From a virus: a stretch of 64,000 bases of DNA. Shown piece after piece: positions 17,586 through 56,649 of the stretch. The stretch spans positions 1-64,000 of IMG/VR virus record IMGVR_UViG_3300006086_000145; one strand, 5' to 3'. Numbering within the stretch: the first letter of the stretch is position 1; each line of letters opens with the position of its first letter. A program made the position numbers and the translations under genes. The notes under the pieces are model-generated. The model was not told where the DNA came from. It did no database searches and saw nothing but the letters and a program-made list of their open reading frames with translations.

Positions 17586-18258
17586 TTTAGAAACTGCCAA
17601 TATGATGGTGCAGACCGCACAAGATAATCTAAACGATATATCTGCACAATTACGAAAATTGAAATACGGTGAACATGTTGGTGGTGGTAGTACACTGAAT
17701 ACGCGCTATGCGAGTTCTAGTTACACCTCACTTGCTGCTGCGTTGATTCGTTTGGAGTGTCTTGCTATCAAGACACAGGAGAAAATGTCGGAGCTTGGTA
17801 AGTTTGGCTTGTCTAATAGTGAATTGAGTGATGCTATCGGTAAAGTCATTTGTAGATTAAAGATGACGGACTTTAAAGATTATTTTGTCAAAGAGCCTGT
17901 TACATCCGTAAGTATAGGTTTTATCACACGTAAACCAACTGCCTTTCCAAATCTACATCAAGGACAATACATTATTATCTTACACCGATCGGATACCACC
18001 GCATCTGTCATTACGTGTGCTGTACACAATCAAACGCCCTACATACGTGCATCATGCACTAGCTCAACGATCTATACAATACCTAGCGAGTTTGTAGCAA
18101 AAATAAATCTTGAGTTGCCTGTAAAAGAAATTGTAATGCCTGCAATAATGAATGTTTTGCAAGATACTGTGCGTGAAGAATTTTACAAGCACTTAAATGA
18201 TTCACAACTTCCAGCAACTAACTGGACCAAAGAAGGAATACACTATGTCGAACAGTGA
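17572..18258 (+). CDS. Hypothetical protein, 228 aa
   Basis: The ATG at 17572 has a strong GGAGG site and lies within the end of the HAD gene. The N-terminal third is a helical hairpin (ETANMMVQTAQDNLNDISAQLRKL), the middle is beta-rich and the end helical. Not recognised. It overlaps the next gene by 14 bases. Confidence 0.75.
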   Translation: MKPIDLETANMMVQTAQDNLNDISAQLRKLKYGEHVGGGSTLNTRYASSSYTSLAAALIRLECLAIKTQEKMSELGKFGLSNSELSDAIGKVICRLKMTDFKDYFVKEPVTSVSIGFITRKPTAFPNLHQGQYIIILHRSDTTASVITCAVHNQTPYIRASCTSSTIYTIPSEFVAKINLELPVKEIVMPAIMNVLQDTVREEFYKHLNDSQLPATNWTKEGIHYVEQ

Positions 18259-18679
18259 TACGCTACTAGCAGAAGTAAAATCTTTTGATGAGCGCATGAT
18301 TGATTTAATGCGCGCCAACGTAGGACTGCTTCTCACAGAAGAAGAATTGCAGAAAATTATGACTCGTGGTATCGAGGAGCTTTTCTTCAAAGAACGCAAA
18401 GTAATTCCAAACCCACATAGACCTACTGATTACCGTATGGAACCCGCTCTGATGGAAGTAGCGTTGCTGGATATTGTACGTGCTAAAGTTCCAGACGCTC
18501 TCAATCTTTGGTTCAAAGACAATCCGGAGAAGATTCAAGAACTGATTAACAATTGTGTAGGTGCAAACGTAGAACAATTCCTTGCTAAGGCAATTGCAGG
18601 ACTGTTCCAGAATTCGTTTCAGAATATGCAATGGAGTATTCAAAGTAATATTCTGCAACAAATTCAACCACAGCGGTAA
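18245..18679 (+). CDS. Helical hypothetical protein, 144 aa
   Basis: The ATG at 18245 is preceded by GAAGGAA. The product is almost wholly helical and ends in a Gln/Asn-rich segment. No membrane span. It is coupled to the gene before. Unknown family. Confidence 0.7.
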   Translation: MSNSDTLLAEVKSFDERMIDLMRANVGLLLTEEELQKIMTRGIEELFFKERKVIPNPHRPTDYRMEPALMEVALLDIVRAKVPDALNLWFKDNPEKIQELINNCVGANVEQFLAKAIAGLFQNSFQNMQWSIQSNILQQIQPQR

Positions 18680-18685
18680 TCTGCT

Positions 18686-20088: not shown

Positions 20089-20499
20089 ATGATCTTTTCC
20101 TGTATTACTGCATACACACTATGTAGCTATTATGACTGCATTATAGATTTGCATCTGGTGCCAGTCTTAGTGGTATCTAAACAACCATATTTAGATAGGA
20201 CTAATGCAACATCCCCACTTCCAAACGCAGAATTAGTATTACCAAATGATTATGCTGATGAGGAGTACATAACAGTACCGTTGTGGGATGTTACAGTACG
20301 TAACATGCGTATGTGTTATGAAAGCGGTGTTTTGTCATTTAACCGCGTAGAAGACAATGCGGAGTTTAAAGTACCTGTTGAATATATCCCTATGCTTAAA
20401 TCAAGCGGTGATGAGATTATATTTGAATTCGATCCTAAGGACTTTAAAATGATGCGAGTTTTCAGTAAACAAAAACCTAAATTGAGAGTAGTAAAATGA
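20089..20499 (+). CDS. SspB-like ClpX adaptor, copy 1
   Basis: The 136-residue protein resembles SspB, which delivers ssrA-tagged and other substrates to the ClpXP protease. IDLHLVPVLVVS (19-30) matches the 'DN.lTPhlvVd' strand. GVLSFNRVEDNAEFKVPVEYIPML (80-103) matches 'i.FnArFgG.p..v.vP..avlai'. The protein ends KPKLRVVK, nearly identical to the C-terminal LRVVK segment with which E. coli SspB docks on ClpX. The body is diverged and has an insert at about 33-58. Preceded by AAGGA; overlaps the next gene by four bases. The body match alone is moderate; the tail, shared with the gene at 23074, raises it. Confidence 0.65.
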   Translation: MIFSCITAYTLCSYYDCIIDLHLVPVLVVSKQPYLDRTNATSPLPNAELVLPNDYADEEYITVPLWDVTVRNMRMCYESGVLSFNRVEDNAEFKVPVEYIPMLKSSGDEIIFEFDPKDFKMMRVFSKQKPKLRVVK

Positions 20500-21475: not shown

Positions 21476-21482
21476 AGTGTTT

Positions 21483-21735
21483 GCAGTTTCACATTCACCT
21501 AAAACATAGGTATGGTGACTACGCTTCGGAAATATGGTTGTTGTAACAGCGTAGCTAAACTGCACGGTATGCGGACTTACTTAGGTTCTTATGTTTCAAC
21601 CTCATTCAACTAGGTAAGCGTCTTTATCCTACTCCCGAAAGGCGCAGAGCCGTCAATCAACCGCAGATTGTTATGTCTGGTAGTTCGGTATACTCCGATT
21701 CCGCCCAACTGCTGTAGCCTACACTTATCGAAAGA
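21483..21735 (+). ncRNA. Structured non-coding RNA candidate, copy A
   Basis: The 310-base gap between genes has no credible frame but many perfect stems. GCAGTTT/AAACTGC (21483-21489 with 21557-21563) encloses CTACGC/GCGTAG (21519-21524 with 21549-21554) and a CACC/GGTG hairpin, giving a three-way junction. CTTACTTAG/CTAGGTAAG (21576-21584 with 21610-21618) forms another long stem. The 3' half shares GGTAAGCG, AGAGCCGTnAATCA, CGCAG, TATACTC and ACTGnTGTAGC in the same order with the gap at 22702-22965. Conserved blocks interleaved with different stems indicate a functional RNA. I do not recognise the class; no tRNA, tmRNA or RNase P hallmark is present. Confidence 0.65.
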
Positions 21736-21785
21736 TATTTGTGACAGGAACAATCATTTTTAATTTCACTTAGATAAGGTGTATT

Positions 21786-22004
21786 ATGACACAACAAGAT
21801 AATGAAATGACTGATGAAGAATTTATCGGTTATTGTGAAATACATTGCGCTACGCAAAGAGCTTTATTCTTAGGTCGTGATATAAACCGTATGTATGCTC
21901 TAGCAGGTAGAACAGATACAAGAGTACCGGAAGGTGAATGGTTTACCGTACGCAGTCAAATGATGGCATTGTGCGATTCTGCTAGAAAGAGATTAGCAAA
22001 ATGA
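21786..22004 (+). CDS. Small hypothetical protein, 72 aa
   Basis: Acidic helical start (TQQDNEMTDEEFIGYCEIHC) and basic end. Follows structured RNA A with AAGGTG before the ATG. Overlaps the next gene by four bases. Confidence 0.65.
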   Translation: MTQQDNEMTDEEFIGYCEIHCATQRALFLGRDINRMYALAGRTDTRVPEGEWFTVRSQMMALCDSARKRLAK

Positions 22005-22339
22005 ATATTGACATAACCTTACCTAAAAATGAAGAAATTGAATACCCTGAATTTCGTACCGTGCGTGACGGTGGTTCGGTATTATTCGAGTTCAATAAAA
22101 AGCGGTACATGATACGCGGTGGTATTGCTTGTGAATCATTAGGTATGATAGGTGCACCTGTTTACGATACAGTTATGGGTAGATTATCTGTATCAGAACA
22201 AGATTGTAATGAATTGGCAGTTAATTGTATTACATGGGCCAAGAAAACTGAAAACGAATATCACCGTAAAATGCTTAATCTGTGTGCAGATCGTTGCAAA
22301 GATTACGTTACCTGTTACGAACCGAGAAATATTGAATGA
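22001..22339 (+). CDS. Hypothetical protein, 112 aa
   Basis: Beta-rich N-terminal half (GGSVLFEFNKKRYMIRGGIA) and a helical C-terminal half with four cysteines (about residues 81-108). Part of a three-gene coupled group with ATGA-type overlaps on both sides. The next protein shares the 'RDGGSV' start, hinting at a common small domain. Not recognised. Confidence 0.7.
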   Translation: MNIDITLPKNEEIEYPEFRTVRDGGSVLFEFNKKRYMIRGGIACESLGMIGAPVYDTVMGRLSVSEQDCNELAVNCITWAKKTENEYHRKMLNLCADRCKDYVTCYEPRNIE

Positions 22340-22701
22340 CAGTTTATATAGCAATGCACCGTGATGGTGGTTCAGTTTCTGTAACACACAAAGAAACAAA
22401 AACAGAATATTACATAGACCATCGTGTTGGTAGTGACACTAAAGGTTTGGTATTCTCAGACTTACATAAATATATTGTTGTGTGTAAAAATGATGCCAAA
22501 GAAGTTGCACGCGAACTAAAAGAATGGTTAACGATTTGGTTAGACGAACAACCTATAACACAACAATCTAAGAAAATTCAGGTACAAAATATTGTAGAAA
22601 TAATTGAAAATGCTGTCCATAAATTGGAAGAACATTACGATGAATTCTACACAACAAGATTCCAAGAATTTGAAAGTCGTAGACGTGCAAGAATAGCTTG
22701 A
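22336..22701 (+). CDS. Hypothetical protein, 121 aa
   Basis: Beta-rich start (HRDGGSVSVTHKETKTEYYI) then long charged helices ending in a basic RRRARIA. The second structured RNA begins right after its stop. Not recognised. Confidence 0.7.
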   Translation: MTVYIAMHRDGGSVSVTHKETKTEYYIDHRVGSDTKGLVFSDLHKYIVVCKNDAKEVARELKEWLTIWLDEQPITQQSKKIQVQNIVEIIENAVHKLEEHYDEFYTTRFQEFESRRRARIA

Positions 22702-22965
22702 GTTGGAAGTGAGCGATAGCATTAGTACATGCGTTGCGTGATCTAGGTGGTTTGCATTAAGAAGGATCACACGTACTCGGTAAGCGAACCTTATGCTTTA
22801 TTGTAAGGCGTTGCATTAGAGCAGCGTAGAGCCGTTAATCATTCGCAGGTTTATCACAGTTGTTGTATGACGGGGTGAGTGAAAAATCCACCCAAATGAC
22901 CGCGTACAATAGGGTTCAGCTATACTCACAGCATCCTTGCCTGTACTGTTGTAGCGAAAACATTA
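22702..22965 (+). ncRNA. Structured non-coding RNA candidate, copy B
   Basis: The 372-base gap between genes holds no convincing frame. It carries the ordered blocks of copy A: GGTAAGCG (22779-22786), AGAGCCGTTAATCA (22828-22841), CGCAG (22844-22848), TATACTC (22921-22927) and ACTGTTGTAGC (22945-22955). Its own stems are GTGATC/GATCAC (22738-22743 with 22765-22770), ACCTTA/TAAGG, GTTGC/GCAGC, and TTGTA...CGG...GGGTG/CACCC...CCG...TACAA (22863-22909). The last replaces a shorter segment in A. Blocks conserved while stems differ in length argue for a real RNA family with two members. The remainder of the gap (22966-23073) holds the promoter-like motif and inverted repeat. Confidence 0.65.
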
Positions 22966-23024
22966 GGTTATACACATCATCCTATTGCTAGTAGTTTGTA
23001 CTCTGGGGATAAACCATTTTCTAC

Positions 23025-23064
23025 AAATACTGTAAATATACTATGAACTTAACTATATTTACAG
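23025..23064 (+). promoter_or_regulatory. AAATACTGTAAATA motif with an 11-base inverted repeat
   Basis: The 14-base motif (23025-23038) is identical to that at 1718-1731. Here CTGTAAATATA (23030-23040) is repeated inverted as TATATTTACAG (23054-23064) with a 13-base spacer, ending nine bases before the start codon at 23074. It could be an operator over the promoter or a hairpin covering the ribosome site. Confidence 0.5.
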
Positions 23065-23073
23065 GCGATAATC

Positions 23074-23574
23074 ATGTTAAAACAGTTCTGCACCAATATC
23101 GAAGTAGTACAAAACCACATCAACATGTTGTCTATGATGGGTTACGACCCACATATACAATTGTCAAGAAAGCCTAGTTTCTCGCGCGCCCAAATACTCC
23201 TATTATCTCCAGTCGAACTATCATTACCAAAATCCCTACAAGATCGTAAAAAAGTAACGCTACGTGCTGCGACACGTTCCATGACGAACTACAATATAGA
23301 TTATGAGAACGCTGTTATTGCATTCAACACAACATTTAACGGTGTTCCTTTCCGCTGTGTATTGCCATTAGAGAATATTATTGGCGTTAGCACCGGTGAT
23401 TCTGCACCCTCTGAGGATAAAGCATTCTACTTTGAGTATAACTTTGGATCTCCAAGCGAACCCATATACATTATTCCTAATCCACTTGCGTCCAAATATA
23501 ACAAGAAAGAATCTAAAGAGTTTTTCGAGAACTCTCACTTCCCAGCTAAACCAACATTAACGGTTGTCAAATAA
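23074..23574 (+). CDS. SspB-like ClpX adaptor, copy 2
   Basis: 166 residues. GYDPHIQLS (23-31) matches the SspB 'LTPhlvVd' strand. YENAVIAFNTTFNGVPFRCVLPLENIIGVSTGD (77-109) matches 'n..i.FnArFgGvp..v.vPl.AVlaIYA', and DKAFYFEY matches the 'g.mFe' strand. A Lys/Ser/Asn-rich linker leads to the C-terminal AKPTLTVVK, which corresponds to the ClpX-docking tail RPALRVVK of E. coli SspB. The folded domain, flexible linker and docking tail thus follow SspB order and length (166 versus 165 residues). It would act in the cytoplasm, bringing chosen proteins to host ClpXP, or competing with host SspB. Its last base is the first base of the exonuclease start codon. Confidence 0.78.
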   Translation: MLKQFCTNIEVVQNHINMLSMMGYDPHIQLSRKPSFSRAQILLLSPVELSLPKSLQDRKKVTLRAATRSMTNYNIDYENAVIAFNTTFNGVPFRCVLPLENIIGVSTGDSAPSEDKAFYFEYNFGSPSEPIYIIPNPLASKYNKKESKEFFENSHFPAKPTLTVVK

Positions 23575-36135: not shown

Positions 36136-36909
36136 TTATTGCACCAAGTACCAATAGAAATCCCAACCAGTTGCAGCCGCACCTGCTAACAAACCATTAT
36201 CTGCGGTTAGAGTTACAGAGCCGCTGCTTATTGTAGTCACACCAACTTTATTTGCGACCGCAGAAGTTGGATCAATCCATTGCAGGACAAAGCTCAAGGC
36301 ATTAGTATCTACAGAAGCAGTAAGCGCACTAGGTAGTAAAACAGTTTTTATTTGACCCACAGTAGCATCCGTGTATCTACCCCATTGCATAACGCGGCCT
36401 GTGCTCATCTTCTCACTAGATGCCGTAGCACTAGTTGTGTATATAGGACTAGCACCATCTGTACCCGCAGGGCCTTGAGGTCCCGTAGGACCGGCAGGGC
36501 CAGTAGCACCTTGAGGACCAATAGAACCCAAAGTACCAGAAGCCCCAGCAGGACCAATAGGACCAGCATCACCTTTTGGTCCAGTACAACCTGGAATACC
36601 ATTAGCACCATCTTTACCATTGCGTCCAGAAGGGCCTGGATTACCTTGAGGCCCAGTTGAACCTCTAGGACCTACACCTATGTTAGCTACAGTCATAAAT
36701 CCTGGAACTTGAAGTATAGTAGAATCTGAGCGCGTTAATTCTAACACACCTGTATCACTATTATACTTAGCACTAGAAACATAAATATCTTGCTGCTGTC
36801 CACTACTAGGAGATTGGGCTTCTACCGCAGAACCATTATACACCAATTGATCTTTTGGTTGAGCATTTGCTCCAACACCTATCATAGATACGGGCGTTTT
36901 TGTTAGCAT
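36136..36909 (-). CDS. Collagen-like tail protein 1, 257 aa
   Basis: Start chosen at the ATG at 36909 with AAGGT upstream. An N-terminal beta module ([19 protein letters not shown]...[13 protein letters not shown]) precedes a Gly-X-Y run of about 25 triplets with a single cysteine ([10 protein letters not shown]). The C-terminal domain (about 85 residues) is not collagen and is unlike the other three copies. Gly-X-Y trimers form rigid stalks in phage fibres. It is the first of four paralogues in this strand block. Confidence 0.82.
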
Positions 36910-36919
36910 ATCAATTACC

Positions 36920-37087
36920 TTACGAAGTTGGTAACCAAGTTGTGTTATCTGCACTGCGAACTTGTGTATTAAAGGGGCCCATAGGGACCCAAGCATTGTT
37001 CGCAGGACTTCTAACTTTCCAACCGTAGTTACTAAAGTTTTTTACCCAAGATGATTGGGCTGTCTTACGGACTTGTAAAACTATCAT
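36920..37087 (-). CDS. Small virion protein, 55 aa, paralogue of the N-terminus of the 1114-aa protein
   Basis: The ATG at 37087 lies in an ATGA overlap with the stop of the upstream gene and has GGAAAG before it. [25 protein letters not shown]...[10 protein letters not shown] aligns with NDWLDICQSEWHVRNAANTDWIRL...RHGTNNYWLP at the start of the 1114-residue protein encoded just upstream. It is therefore a stand-alone copy of that attachment-type domain. Confidence 0.75.
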
Positions 37088-40442: not shown

Positions 40443-40949
40443 TTATGGTTTAACCCACAATGCACCTGGGCCGGCTGCTGCTCCTGGATCTTCTGCTGTT
40501 ATGTAAATAGCCACAAAACCCGTATCACCTTTATCACCTTTTTCACCTTGCGGACCTGGTCTACCTTCAGGACCTTGAATACCTGGAGTGCCTTGAGGTC
40601 CAGTTGAACCCGGGGTGCCGGGTGGACCTTGACAACCAGTAGGGCCTTGCAAACCATCAATACCTAAAAGACCATCTGCACCATTAGTACCACTAACACC
40701 TTGCGGACCGGGAGCACCTATACCTATACTTCCGGGTGTCATAAATCCACTAATCTGTATATTCGTACCATCTGCGAATGTCAATGTAACAACACCGCTA
40801 ACATCATCATAACTACCCGATACTACATTCTTACTAGTTGTGCTAGGGTCTGACGCAACAACAACCTGTTCACCATCAAATCTAACGTCAGAGGCTGTAG
40901 AACCTCTAGCATCCAGCATTGACAATGGGGGTTTAGTTAATCCACTCAT
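40443..40949 (-). CDS. Collagen-like tail protein 2, 168 aa
   Basis: N-terminal beta module (VSGSYDDVSGVVTLTFADG...ISGFMTPGSIGIG), Gly-X-Y run of about 22 triplets with one cysteine (GPTGCQGPPG), and a short C-terminal EDPGAAAGPGALWVKP cap. The cap is also present, slightly varied, in copies 3 and 4. Likely a trimeric fibre stalk. Confidence 0.82.
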   Translation of the reverse strand: MSGLTKPPLSMLDARGSTASDVRFDGEQVVVASDPSTTSKNVVSGSYDDVSGVVTLTFADGTNIQISGFMTPGSIGIGAPGPQGVSGTNGADGLLGIDGLQGPTGCQGPPGTPGSTGPQGTPGIQGPEGRPGPQGEKGDKGDTGFVAIYITAEDPGAAAGPGALWVKP

Positions 40950-40973
40950 AAATACCTCAGTTCATCAATACTA

Positions 40974-41675
40974 TTAAGGCCATTTGATCGTTCCAAGGGC
41001 TGGATCCGATATAGTCGTTGTAGGTGGTACAACGACCGTAGTCGTAGCTGGAGGTTGTACACTTGGGTTTACCCACAATGCTCCAGCACCAGCAGCAGAA
41101 CCCGGATCAGTGCTAGATACTACTACATTAACGCTTCCTGGAGCACCGGCAGTTCCTGGAGCACCAGAGGGACCCTGATCACCTCTAGGGCCAGTAGGGC
41201 CGGGGGAACCTAGAACACCTGCAGGACCTTGAACACCTTGTGGACCTTGTGGACCAGTAAGACCTCTAGGGCCGGGAGGGCCTTGAAGACCTTGACGACC
41301 ATCTGGACCCTGTACACCTAAAGAGCCAGAAGGTCCTGGGGGTCCCATACATCCCATAGAACCTGGAGCACCGGGAGCACCGGGTTGGCCTGGAGCACCG
41401 TCTTTTCCAGTAAGACCTTGTGGACCAGTAGGGCCGGGAGGAATTTTTGCAGCAGTAGGAAAACCACCCACACGCACACTATCACCGTTAGATAATGTTA
41501 ATGTTAGAATACCTAATACGGGATCGTAAGTACCGGATTGGATTTCAGATACACTAGATTGACTAGGTGTTGTTACAGTAAGACGCTCAGACTGGACTAC
41601 AATCTCAGATTGATCTGGACTTCCGGGTGCTTTTATTTGAGAAACTAATGGACGTGTTAAACCAAAATTAGACAT
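40974..41675 (-). CDS. Collagen-like tail protein 3, 233 aa
   Basis: Same plan as copy 2 with the longest Gly-X-Y run (about 37 triplets) and one cysteine ([10 protein letters not shown]). [18 protein letters not shown] cap is followed by a Pro/Thr tail and an extra ALGTIKWP end. The N-terminal module reads [20 protein letters not shown]...[10 protein letters not shown]. Confidence 0.82.
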
Positions 41676-41684
41676 AATTACCTC

Positions 41685-42446
41685 TTAGACAGGCTTGCCC
41701 CACAATAATGAACCGTCTGTAGGTGCAGTAGCAGATACTACAACAGCGGCAACTGGAGATACGCCTGCAGGTCCAGAAGAACCTAACGAAGCAGTACAAC
41801 TCTGACCTTTTCTACCTCTAGCACCGTCATCCCCATATCTACCCTGTTCGCCGGGAATACCTTGCATTCCAGCAAGACCTGGTTGACCTATTTGACCGGC
41901 AGGGCCCTGTACACCATCAGCACCAGCAGCGCCCGGTACACCAGCAGGACCTGTAGCACCGGTAGCACCAGCACAACCAGTATCACCATCAAAACCGTTG
42001 AAGCCATCGTTCCCGGGCATACCGTCATTTCCAGGTACACCTTTGGGTCCAGTAGGACCTACACCAAAATCTGTTTGCACGAGAAAATGTGGAATTGTAA
42101 TAACACTACCATCAGCTTTAATGATAGATAGTGTGCCAGATTTATCGTTGAAGTCGGCTTGCACTATATTAGTAGCAGATGAGGTTGACGTATCAGCAAA
42201 CGCAACTTTATTAGTAGTATCATCCCGCTGTAGTGTTGTATTCTGTATATTAGCACCAATCGCTTCAAAATCTGACAATCTTAAATCAGTTAGAGGTGAT
42301 CCTAATGTAGTTGGATAAACATTAGGATCATTTTGAGATACAGTGTTAGTTAATGGTACTTGACCTACAGGAACAGTTTGCTTCTTTCCTTCCAATAAGT
42401 TAGAAAGTAGCGGACTGCTTGTTACACCAGTAAGCATATTAATCAC
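41685..42446 (-). CDS. Collagen-like tail protein 4, 253 aa
   Basis: Longer N-terminal extension (about 95 residues) before the shared beta module (ADFNDKSGTLSIIKADG...IPHFLVQTDFGVG). The Gly-X-Y run has about 30 triplets and one cysteine (GDTGCAGATG), and the cap is shortened (TAPTDGSLLWGKPV). The start overlaps the upstream assembly-protein gene by eight bases. Confidence 0.82.
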   Translation of the reverse strand: MINMLTGVTSSPLLSNLLEGKKQTVPVGQVPLTNTVSQNDPNVYPTTLGSPLTDLRLSDFEAIGANIQNTTLQRDDTTNKVAFADTSTSSATNIVQADFNDKSGTLSIIKADGSVITIPHFLVQTDFGVGPTGPKGVPGNDGMPGNDGFNGFDGDTGCAGATGATGPAGVPGAAGADGVQGPAGQIGQPGLAGMQGIPGEQGRYGDDGARGRKGQSCTASLGSSGPAGVSPVAAVVVSATAPTDGSLLWGKPV

Positions 42447-55401: not shown

Positions 55402-56649
55402 GTGGAAGCATATTTAAAAACAGTCGAAGAATTACTTACGTGTCCTGTGCGCGAAAACAGAACTGGTGTTGATACACTAGGTAAAGTAGTTAATCTAACA
55501 GAATACAACACTAACTACGGCACTACTTTAAATGCAGTATCTAGTAAATCATTACCACTTAAAAGTGTTCTTGGTGAACTACGTTGTTTCATTCAAGGTA
55601 AAACAAGTGCTGCCGATTTTGGCGCTGCTGGTTGTAACGTATGGTACGAGAATGCTAACGAACATGGTGTTAATCCAAATGCTTGGTTGAGTAATACATT
55701 TCGTAAAGGTACAGACGATCTAGGTCCTATTTATGGTGCTCAGTGGCGTCGCTGGAAAGATACCGTGTTGTTTGAGTGTGAAGAATTAATTGCAGATGAT
55801 GTTAATCGCGGACCCATATCAGCAACAACTGAACGTCAGTTAAAACAAGAACAAGAACATAAGATGTTTAGACATTACATCAAATTGGGGTACCGACTAG
55901 ATGGTACGTATTCAAAGCAATTGGATACAAAGAAAGTTACGGTGTTTGTACTGTATCGTGAAGTAGATCAATTGAAGAACGCTGTAGATACTATCATTAA
56001 ATCACCTAACAGCCGCCGTGTTTTAGTTTTAGGTTGGAATCCAGCAGTGTTGGAGCAAATAGCTTTACCTGCTTGTCATGTATTGCAGCAATACTTGTGT
56101 ACTGAATTGATGTTACACGAGCGCGTACAAGCATTACACGCAAGAGTTACACATGATGTAGAATGGTATGGAAATGAAAGACTTTCAAGACAGAAAGAAT
56201 TAACAGTATTTGGCGATTGGATATATTCAAATGTGTCAAAAGCTGCTTTCTCAAGGGACGTTTTCACACACGAAGTATTGGACAGTTTGAACGTACCCAG
56301 ACACCGTTTAGACTTAATCATGTTTCAGAGAAGTGCCGATTTTGTATTGGGAAGTCCATTCAATATCGCAAGCTACGATATGATGTTGAACAAGATGGCA
56401 CGTGTGACGAACACTGCACCTGGCAGTTTATTTTATCTTACTGGTGATACGCATATTTATGTTACACACTTGGATGCAGCTAGAGAGCAAATCGAACGCG
56501 GTCCTCATGAAGAAAACAGAGGACGTTTCTTAATTAACCCTATCATCAAAACATTGGAAGATTTAGAAAACTCTACTGCGGACGACTATAAGTTTGTTGG
56601 TTACAAGAATAAAGGCAAGTTAGAAAACCCTACACCTATGGCAATTTAG
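55402..56649 (+). CDS. Thymidylate-synthase-family pyrimidine methylase, enlarged (415 aa)
   Basis: Starts at GTG 55402 after AGGAGAAG. All ThyA landmarks are present: ENRTGVDTLGKVV (Arg20), Glu59 in GELRCFIQG, DLGPIYGAQWRRW, the catalytic PACHVLQQY (Cys225), FQRSADFVLGSPFNIASY (Arg310, Asp313, Asn321), GDTHIYVTH (His351) and the C-terminal PMAI. Asn321, equivalent to E. coli Asn177, points to a uracil rather than cytosine substrate, so dUMP methylation or hydroxymethylation. About 150 extra residues lie in two insertions (about 120-190 and 232-300). The usual PPC is PAC here. Which C1 unit is added cannot be told from sequence. It could supply dTMP or a modified base for phage DNA. Confidence 0.9.
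   Translation: MEAYLKTVEELLTCPVRENRTGVDTLGKVVNLTEYNTNYGTTLNAVSSKSLPLKSVLGELRCFIQGKTSAADFGAAGCNVWYENANEHGVNPNAWLSNTFRKGTDDLGPIYGAQWRRWKDTVLFECEELIADDVNRGPISATTERQLKQEQEHKMFRHYIKLGYRLDGTYSKQLDTKKVTVFVLYREVDQLKNAVDTIIKSPNSRRVLVLGWNPAVLEQIALPACHVLQQYLCTELMLHERVQALHARVTHDVEWYGNERLSRQKELTVFGDWIYSNVSKAAFSRDVFTHEVLDSLNVPRHRLDLIMFQRSADFVLGSPFNIASYDMMLNKMARVTNTAPGSLFYLTGDTHIYVTHLDAAREQIERGPHEENRGRFLINPIIKTLEDLENSTADDYKFVGYKNKGKLENPTPMAI

Follow-up and report, generated by a model that had tools for sequence, protein, structure and literature searches.

Genomic setting of the two intergenic regions

The window, the whole stretch of 64,000 nt analysed here (positions 1-64000), comes from a virus contig of 64,911 nt and contains two intergenic regions, 21476-21785 (310 nt) and 22702-23073 (372 nt), which hold the putative RNA copies A and B, 1.2 kb apart. 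All genes around the copies point rightward, and neither gap contains a long sense-strand open frame. Gene calling agreed with the first-pass annotation that these are the only two gene-free gaps above 300 nt; a simple gene chainer left a third gap (18259-18685), but a 160-aa ORF at 18197-18679 occupies it. Each copy starts at most about 25 nt after the preceding stop codon, and the distance from its end to the next same-strand start codon is 68 nt for A and 118 nt for B. Copy A is followed by a small gene of no known family and copy B by a gene for a probable SspB-like adaptor, after which come exonuclease and GroEL-like genes. The features are collected in Table 1.

The baseplate gp6-like protein shared 48% identity with its counterpart in Pseudomonas phage PaBG, 43-45% with those in Lu11 and HRDY3, and 61-62% with those in three IMG/VR contigs, including the long contigs L020 (220 kb) and L021 (225 kb). 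Because of these identities, we take the window to be a piece of a PaBG/Lu11-like jumbo myophage genome. L020 and L021 retain the structural module at 26-57 kb but almost nothing of the region at 1-26 kb, inside which both RNA copies lie.

Table 1. Positions of the elements of copies A and B and of the features 3' of them.
Feature	Position	Strand	Remark
A 5' domain, three-way junction	21482-21564	+	fold energy z -2.9 vs shuffles
A junction closing stem TGCAGTTT/AAACTGCA	21482-21489 / 21557-21564	+	flush with block 1
A block 1 CGGTATGCGGA	21565-21575	+	alignment with B
A putative P2 5' strand	21566-21575	+	10/10 pairs, one bulged G
A hairpin 1, 9 bp, CTTACTTAG/CTAGGTAAG	21576-21618	+	
A hairpin 2, 7 bp, CGTCTTT/AAAGGCG	21619-21644	+	flush with hairpin 1
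A conserved core AGAGCCGTCAATCAACCGCAG	21646-21670	+	21/25 identity with B
A small hairpin 3, CAATC/GATTG, loop AACCGCA	within 21646-21670	+	
A block 4 TTCGGTATACT, putative P2 3' strand	21684-21694	+	
A 3' block ACTGCTGTAGC	21708-21718	+	
ORF 3' of copy A, 72 aa	21786-22004	+	no known family
B 5' stem region, AGTAC/GTACT and GTGATC/GATCAC	22724-22777	+	weak, z -0.3
B block 1 CGGTAAGCGAA	22778-22788	+	alignment with A
B putative P2 5' strand	22779-22788	+	
B hairpin 1, 7 bp, CCTTATG/TGTAAGG	22789-22808	+	
B hairpin 2, 6 bp, CGTTGC/GCAGCG	22809-22826	+	flush with hairpin 1
B conserved core AGAGCCGTTAATCATTCGCAG	22828-22851	+	core comparison with A
B small hairpin 3, AATC/GGTT, loop ATTCGCA	within 22828-22851	+	
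Long extra stem, B only, TTGTTGTATG/CGTACAATAG, inner GGGTG/CACCC	22860-22912	+	
B block 4 TTCAGCTATACT, putative P2 3' strand	22915-22926	+	two bulged A
B 3' block ACTGTTGTAGC	22945-22955	+	
Perfect inverted repeat, 11 bp, between copy B and next start codon	23030-23064	+	3' arm reaches ribosome-binding region
ORF 3' of copy B, 166 aa	23074-23574	+	probable SspB-like ClpXP adaptor, C-terminal LTVVK tail

Shared core and re-alignment of block 1

Both copies contain the core GCG.AGAGCCGT.AATCA..CGCAG in a collinear context with 21 of 25 positions identical; among 1,470 pairs of equally long stretches drawn at random from the window, one reached this level. Windows of 15 nt lying 3' of the core were no better than shuffles. 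The first-pass annotation had described five ordered blocks common to the two gaps, and both gaps do contain them in that order, those of A being at 21565, 21646, 21662, 21688 and 21708; the exception is its site for block 1 of A, GGTAAGCG at 21613, which is actually the 3' arm of hairpin 1 continuing into hairpin 2. Two alignments pair CGGTAAGCG(A)AC of B with CGGTATGCG(G)AC of A at 21565, and the true equivalent of the B block therefore lies there. The blocks TATACTC and ACTGnTGTAGC keep their order in both copies, each being only weakly significant when taken alone. Between the re-aligned block 1 and AGAGCC there are exactly two hairpins with the same geometry in A and B: hairpin 1 begins 2 nt after CGGTAWGCG, hairpin 2 abuts it (0 nt), and 1 nt is left before AGAGCC, with stems of 9 and 7 bp in A and of 7 and 6 bp in B.

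Structural support

Seven double compensatory changes separate A from B in the two abutting hairpins, four of them in the first and three in the second. The total reached by hairpin tiling was matched by 2 of 20,000 dinucleotide shuffles for A and by 77 of 20,000 for B. The three-way junction proposed for copy A also stood, its 5' domain folding better than shuffles (Table 1), while the wider statement that the variable stems pair perfectly held for hairpins 1 and 2 but not throughout; the stem upstream in B is weak. Folding energies of the whole gaps were unremarkable (z -0.97 for A, -0.63 for B).

In addition, a long-range helix (P2) joining block 1 to TATACT in block 4 is moderately supported as a prediction, with 10 pairs per copy (GGUAUGCGGA/UUCG[G]UAUACU in A and GGUAAGCGAA/UUC[A]GCU[A]UACU in B, bulges in brackets) and one more double compensatory change (eight in total); about 7% of shuffles per copy do as well for P2 alone, and in silico, competing folds are favoured by 6-9 kcal/mol. 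In the alignments A4 and A5 the loops were shortened so that the rows align, and A5 is also without bulges. Every one of the 27 pairs forms in both rows (100%), compared with about 40% when the partners are slid, and these pair counts are biased towards the structure, which was derived from the same two sequences on which it is scored. Of the other candidate pairings, CGGU/GCCG, GAG/CUC and UAUA/UGUA, the first and last entered model R1, showed no covariation and are not claimed. A loop pseudoknot (AACCUUA/UAGGGUU in B, CUACU/GGUAG in A) competes with hairpin 1 and was set aside.

By homology, hairpin geometry, compensatory changes and position, the two gaps most probably encode a single orphan structured RNA in two paralogous copies. 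Two homologues thus share a fold and compensatory changes, as a structured RNA family does, and from the sequence we consider it highly probable that both gaps hold a real structured RNA. We regard it as quite unlikely that the gaps are unrelated and have a coincidental core with stems found after the fact: the whole-gap energies are ordinary, the blocks and stem geometry were chosen post hoc and there are two sequences only, but independent signals agree, namely the core identity and the tiling in both copies. An element acting as DNA (an origin, a recombination or packaging site, or a repeated operator), with which the perfect inverted repeat adjoining copy B would agree, is very unlikely; the spacing of the blocks varies while the stems covary, which suits RNA folding and not fixed protein-DNA contacts.

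Search for known families and further members

Covariance search with 4,227 Rfam families, a check suggested in the first-pass annotation, gave no match at gathering thresholds over the window and none at E<=5; at E<=10 the only entries were NEAT1_2 (E 8.8) and NsiR4 (E 1.9), which are far below threshold and meaningless. ARAGORN found no tRNA or tmRNA, and neither gap has a tmRNA tag-like reading frame. With the blocks, the compensatory stems, the tiling and the lack of an open frame, the earlier description of homologous structured RNAs outside known classes is thus well supported. A ribozyme, or a degenerate self-splicing or mobile (intron-like) RNA core in two copies, would equally combine a conserved core at the junction with peripheral stems that vary; we consider it unlikely, as no group I or II intron or ribozyme core was matched by Rfam models at E<=10, the ORFs on either side do not obviously look like split exons and no adjoining endonuclease gene was recognised.

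Another proposed check, a covariance model from the two sequences run against other phages, yielded no third member: the models recover A and B, with nothing convincing in 37 and 38 other phage records, closest relatives included. Weak covariance matches (E 0.04-1) in L224, L229, L238, L242 and L318 were coding or without hairpins, and matches in Y3 and IMG/VR relatives were attributed to chance. A covariance search of 369 bacterial genomes of one class found nothing, and blastn against phage and plasmid collections gave no match covering the core. Exact and relaxed core patterns occurred in IMG/VR and GTDB genomes at about the chance number, as expected by our own estimates, and the other blocks were absent around the matches inspected. 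The family is therefore known from two paralogs in one genome, with no conservation across independent genomes found in the collections searched.

Downstream genes and start regions

The protein at 23074-23574 has sub-threshold matches to SspB (Pfam, E 0.031; PDB, E about 0.3); its AlphaFold model is of low confidence (pLDDT 48), and the Foldseek list was unusable. The ORF at 20089-20499 is a paralog (27-28% identical) with the tail LRVVK, the sub-threshold Pfam match being obtained for 23074-23574 only. Both paralogs end in KPxLxVVK and are the sole ORFs in the window ending in VVK or VIK, and E. coli SspB has a C-terminal end much like this. From these features the two proteins are probable SspB-like ClpXP adaptors with ClpX-binding-like tails.

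Among 30 gene starts, pairing is highest (0.92) in the region of the one behind copy B, owing to the 11-bp hairpin; the start region behind A (0.48) is not sequestered. Promoter-like sites were about as frequent as expected by chance, and neither copy is flanked by a terminator-like site. No similarity was seen between the genes directly 3' of A and of B.

Proposed mechanism

We tentatively favour a cis-acting intercistronic leader of the next cistron, a reading to which we give somewhat less than an even chance. Both copies would be transcribed within the rightward operon, with the 5' stem leading to a junction that gives off hairpin 1, hairpin 2 abutting it, and the small hairpin 3. This junction would be lined by the conserved strand AGAGCCGUnAAUCAnnCGCAG together with the 3' block ACUGnUGUAGC and is probably closed by pairing of blocks 1 and 4; in copy A, the 3' block may possibly form a pseudoknot with the hairpin 3 loop (GCAG/CTGC). 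The junction would bind a protein or a small ligand, and this binding would set the translation or stability of the 72-aa gene behind A and of the SspB-like adaptor behind B. RNAs that bind a ligand or a protein typically have a conserved junction and variable peripheral stems, and this resemblance was therefore counted for the leader, together with the location of each copy just 5' of a same-strand start and the strongly paired start behind B. Against it stand the two sequences only, the ordinary folding energy, the unsequestered start behind A and the weak P2, and the sense-strand position 5' of a gene is automatic because all genes run rightward.

A trans-acting RNA is almost as probable: the copies would be cut from the operon transcript as discrete RNAs of about 150-250 nt and, as a sponge, scaffold or decoy, bind the ribosome or a protein of the host or phage. 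Tandem paralogs are common among small RNAs, the dissimilarity of the genes 3' of A and B suits such a role, and phages are known to carry stable RNAs whose function is unknown (T4 rnaC and rnaD; GOLLD and ROOL, PMC12286853), but the terminator and promoter results speak against it, as does the failure to identify a processing signal. The position, start-pairing and promoter/terminator data tip the balance slightly from a free RNA towards an intercistronic leader, without separating the two readings. The more specific idea of a new phage RNA class, whose two paralogs in one operon would sense a phage or host factor and control the SspB-like ClpXP adaptor cistron, appears rather improbable.

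Comparison with known systems

T4 rnaC and rnaD (species 1 and 2) are likewise two neighbouring phage structured RNAs of unknown function, but by inspection they share no core sequence with copies A and B, and by annotation they sit in a tRNA cluster, whereas no tRNA was found in the present window. GOLLD and ROOL are likewise phage-encoded structured RNAs without an assigned function; they are far larger (many GOLLD exceed 800 nt) and often lie near tRNA islands (PMC12286853), and copies A and B matched neither in the Rfam search. With riboswitches and protein-binding mRNA leaders the copies have in common a conserved multi-helix junction, variable outer stems and a position 5' of genes, but they match no known aptamer class, and a sequestered start is found behind B only. 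Cellular SspB relatives bind the tag encoded by tmRNA (ssrA), and copies A and B adjoin probable SspB-like adaptor genes, but they have neither a tRNA-like domain nor a tag reading frame. SspB was reported in phage pf16, where likewise no ssrA-like RNA was found (PMC5587285).

The RNA is thus a jumbo phage structured RNA without an Rfam family, an orphan known from two copies. Two diverged paralogs in one genome provide an internal comparison, from which a foldable minimal core and exact mutants can be defined. If the SspB-like link is functional, an RNA element would be tied to phage manipulation of host protein degradation.

Other features of the window

The two genes between the RNA copies (22001-22339 and 22336-22701) have a common RDGGSV segment and could be weak paralogs (E 0.16), which may hint at local duplication. 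The ORF at 24386-25183 matches the GroEL apical region alone (PHROG 5725, positions 190-343), its C-terminal part being without a match, and is a possible apical-domain-only chaperonin. Several tail-region proteins are collagen-like with G-X-Y repeats (36136-36996, 40443-42446), and the thymidylate synthase at 55402-56649 has 415 aa compared with 335 in the matched PHROG profile, so an insertion is possible. The motif CTGTAAATATA (at most one mismatch) occurs 9 times in the window against 3.5 expected, for example at 23030, 23054, 54543 and 1723, and is possibly a phage promoter or operator.
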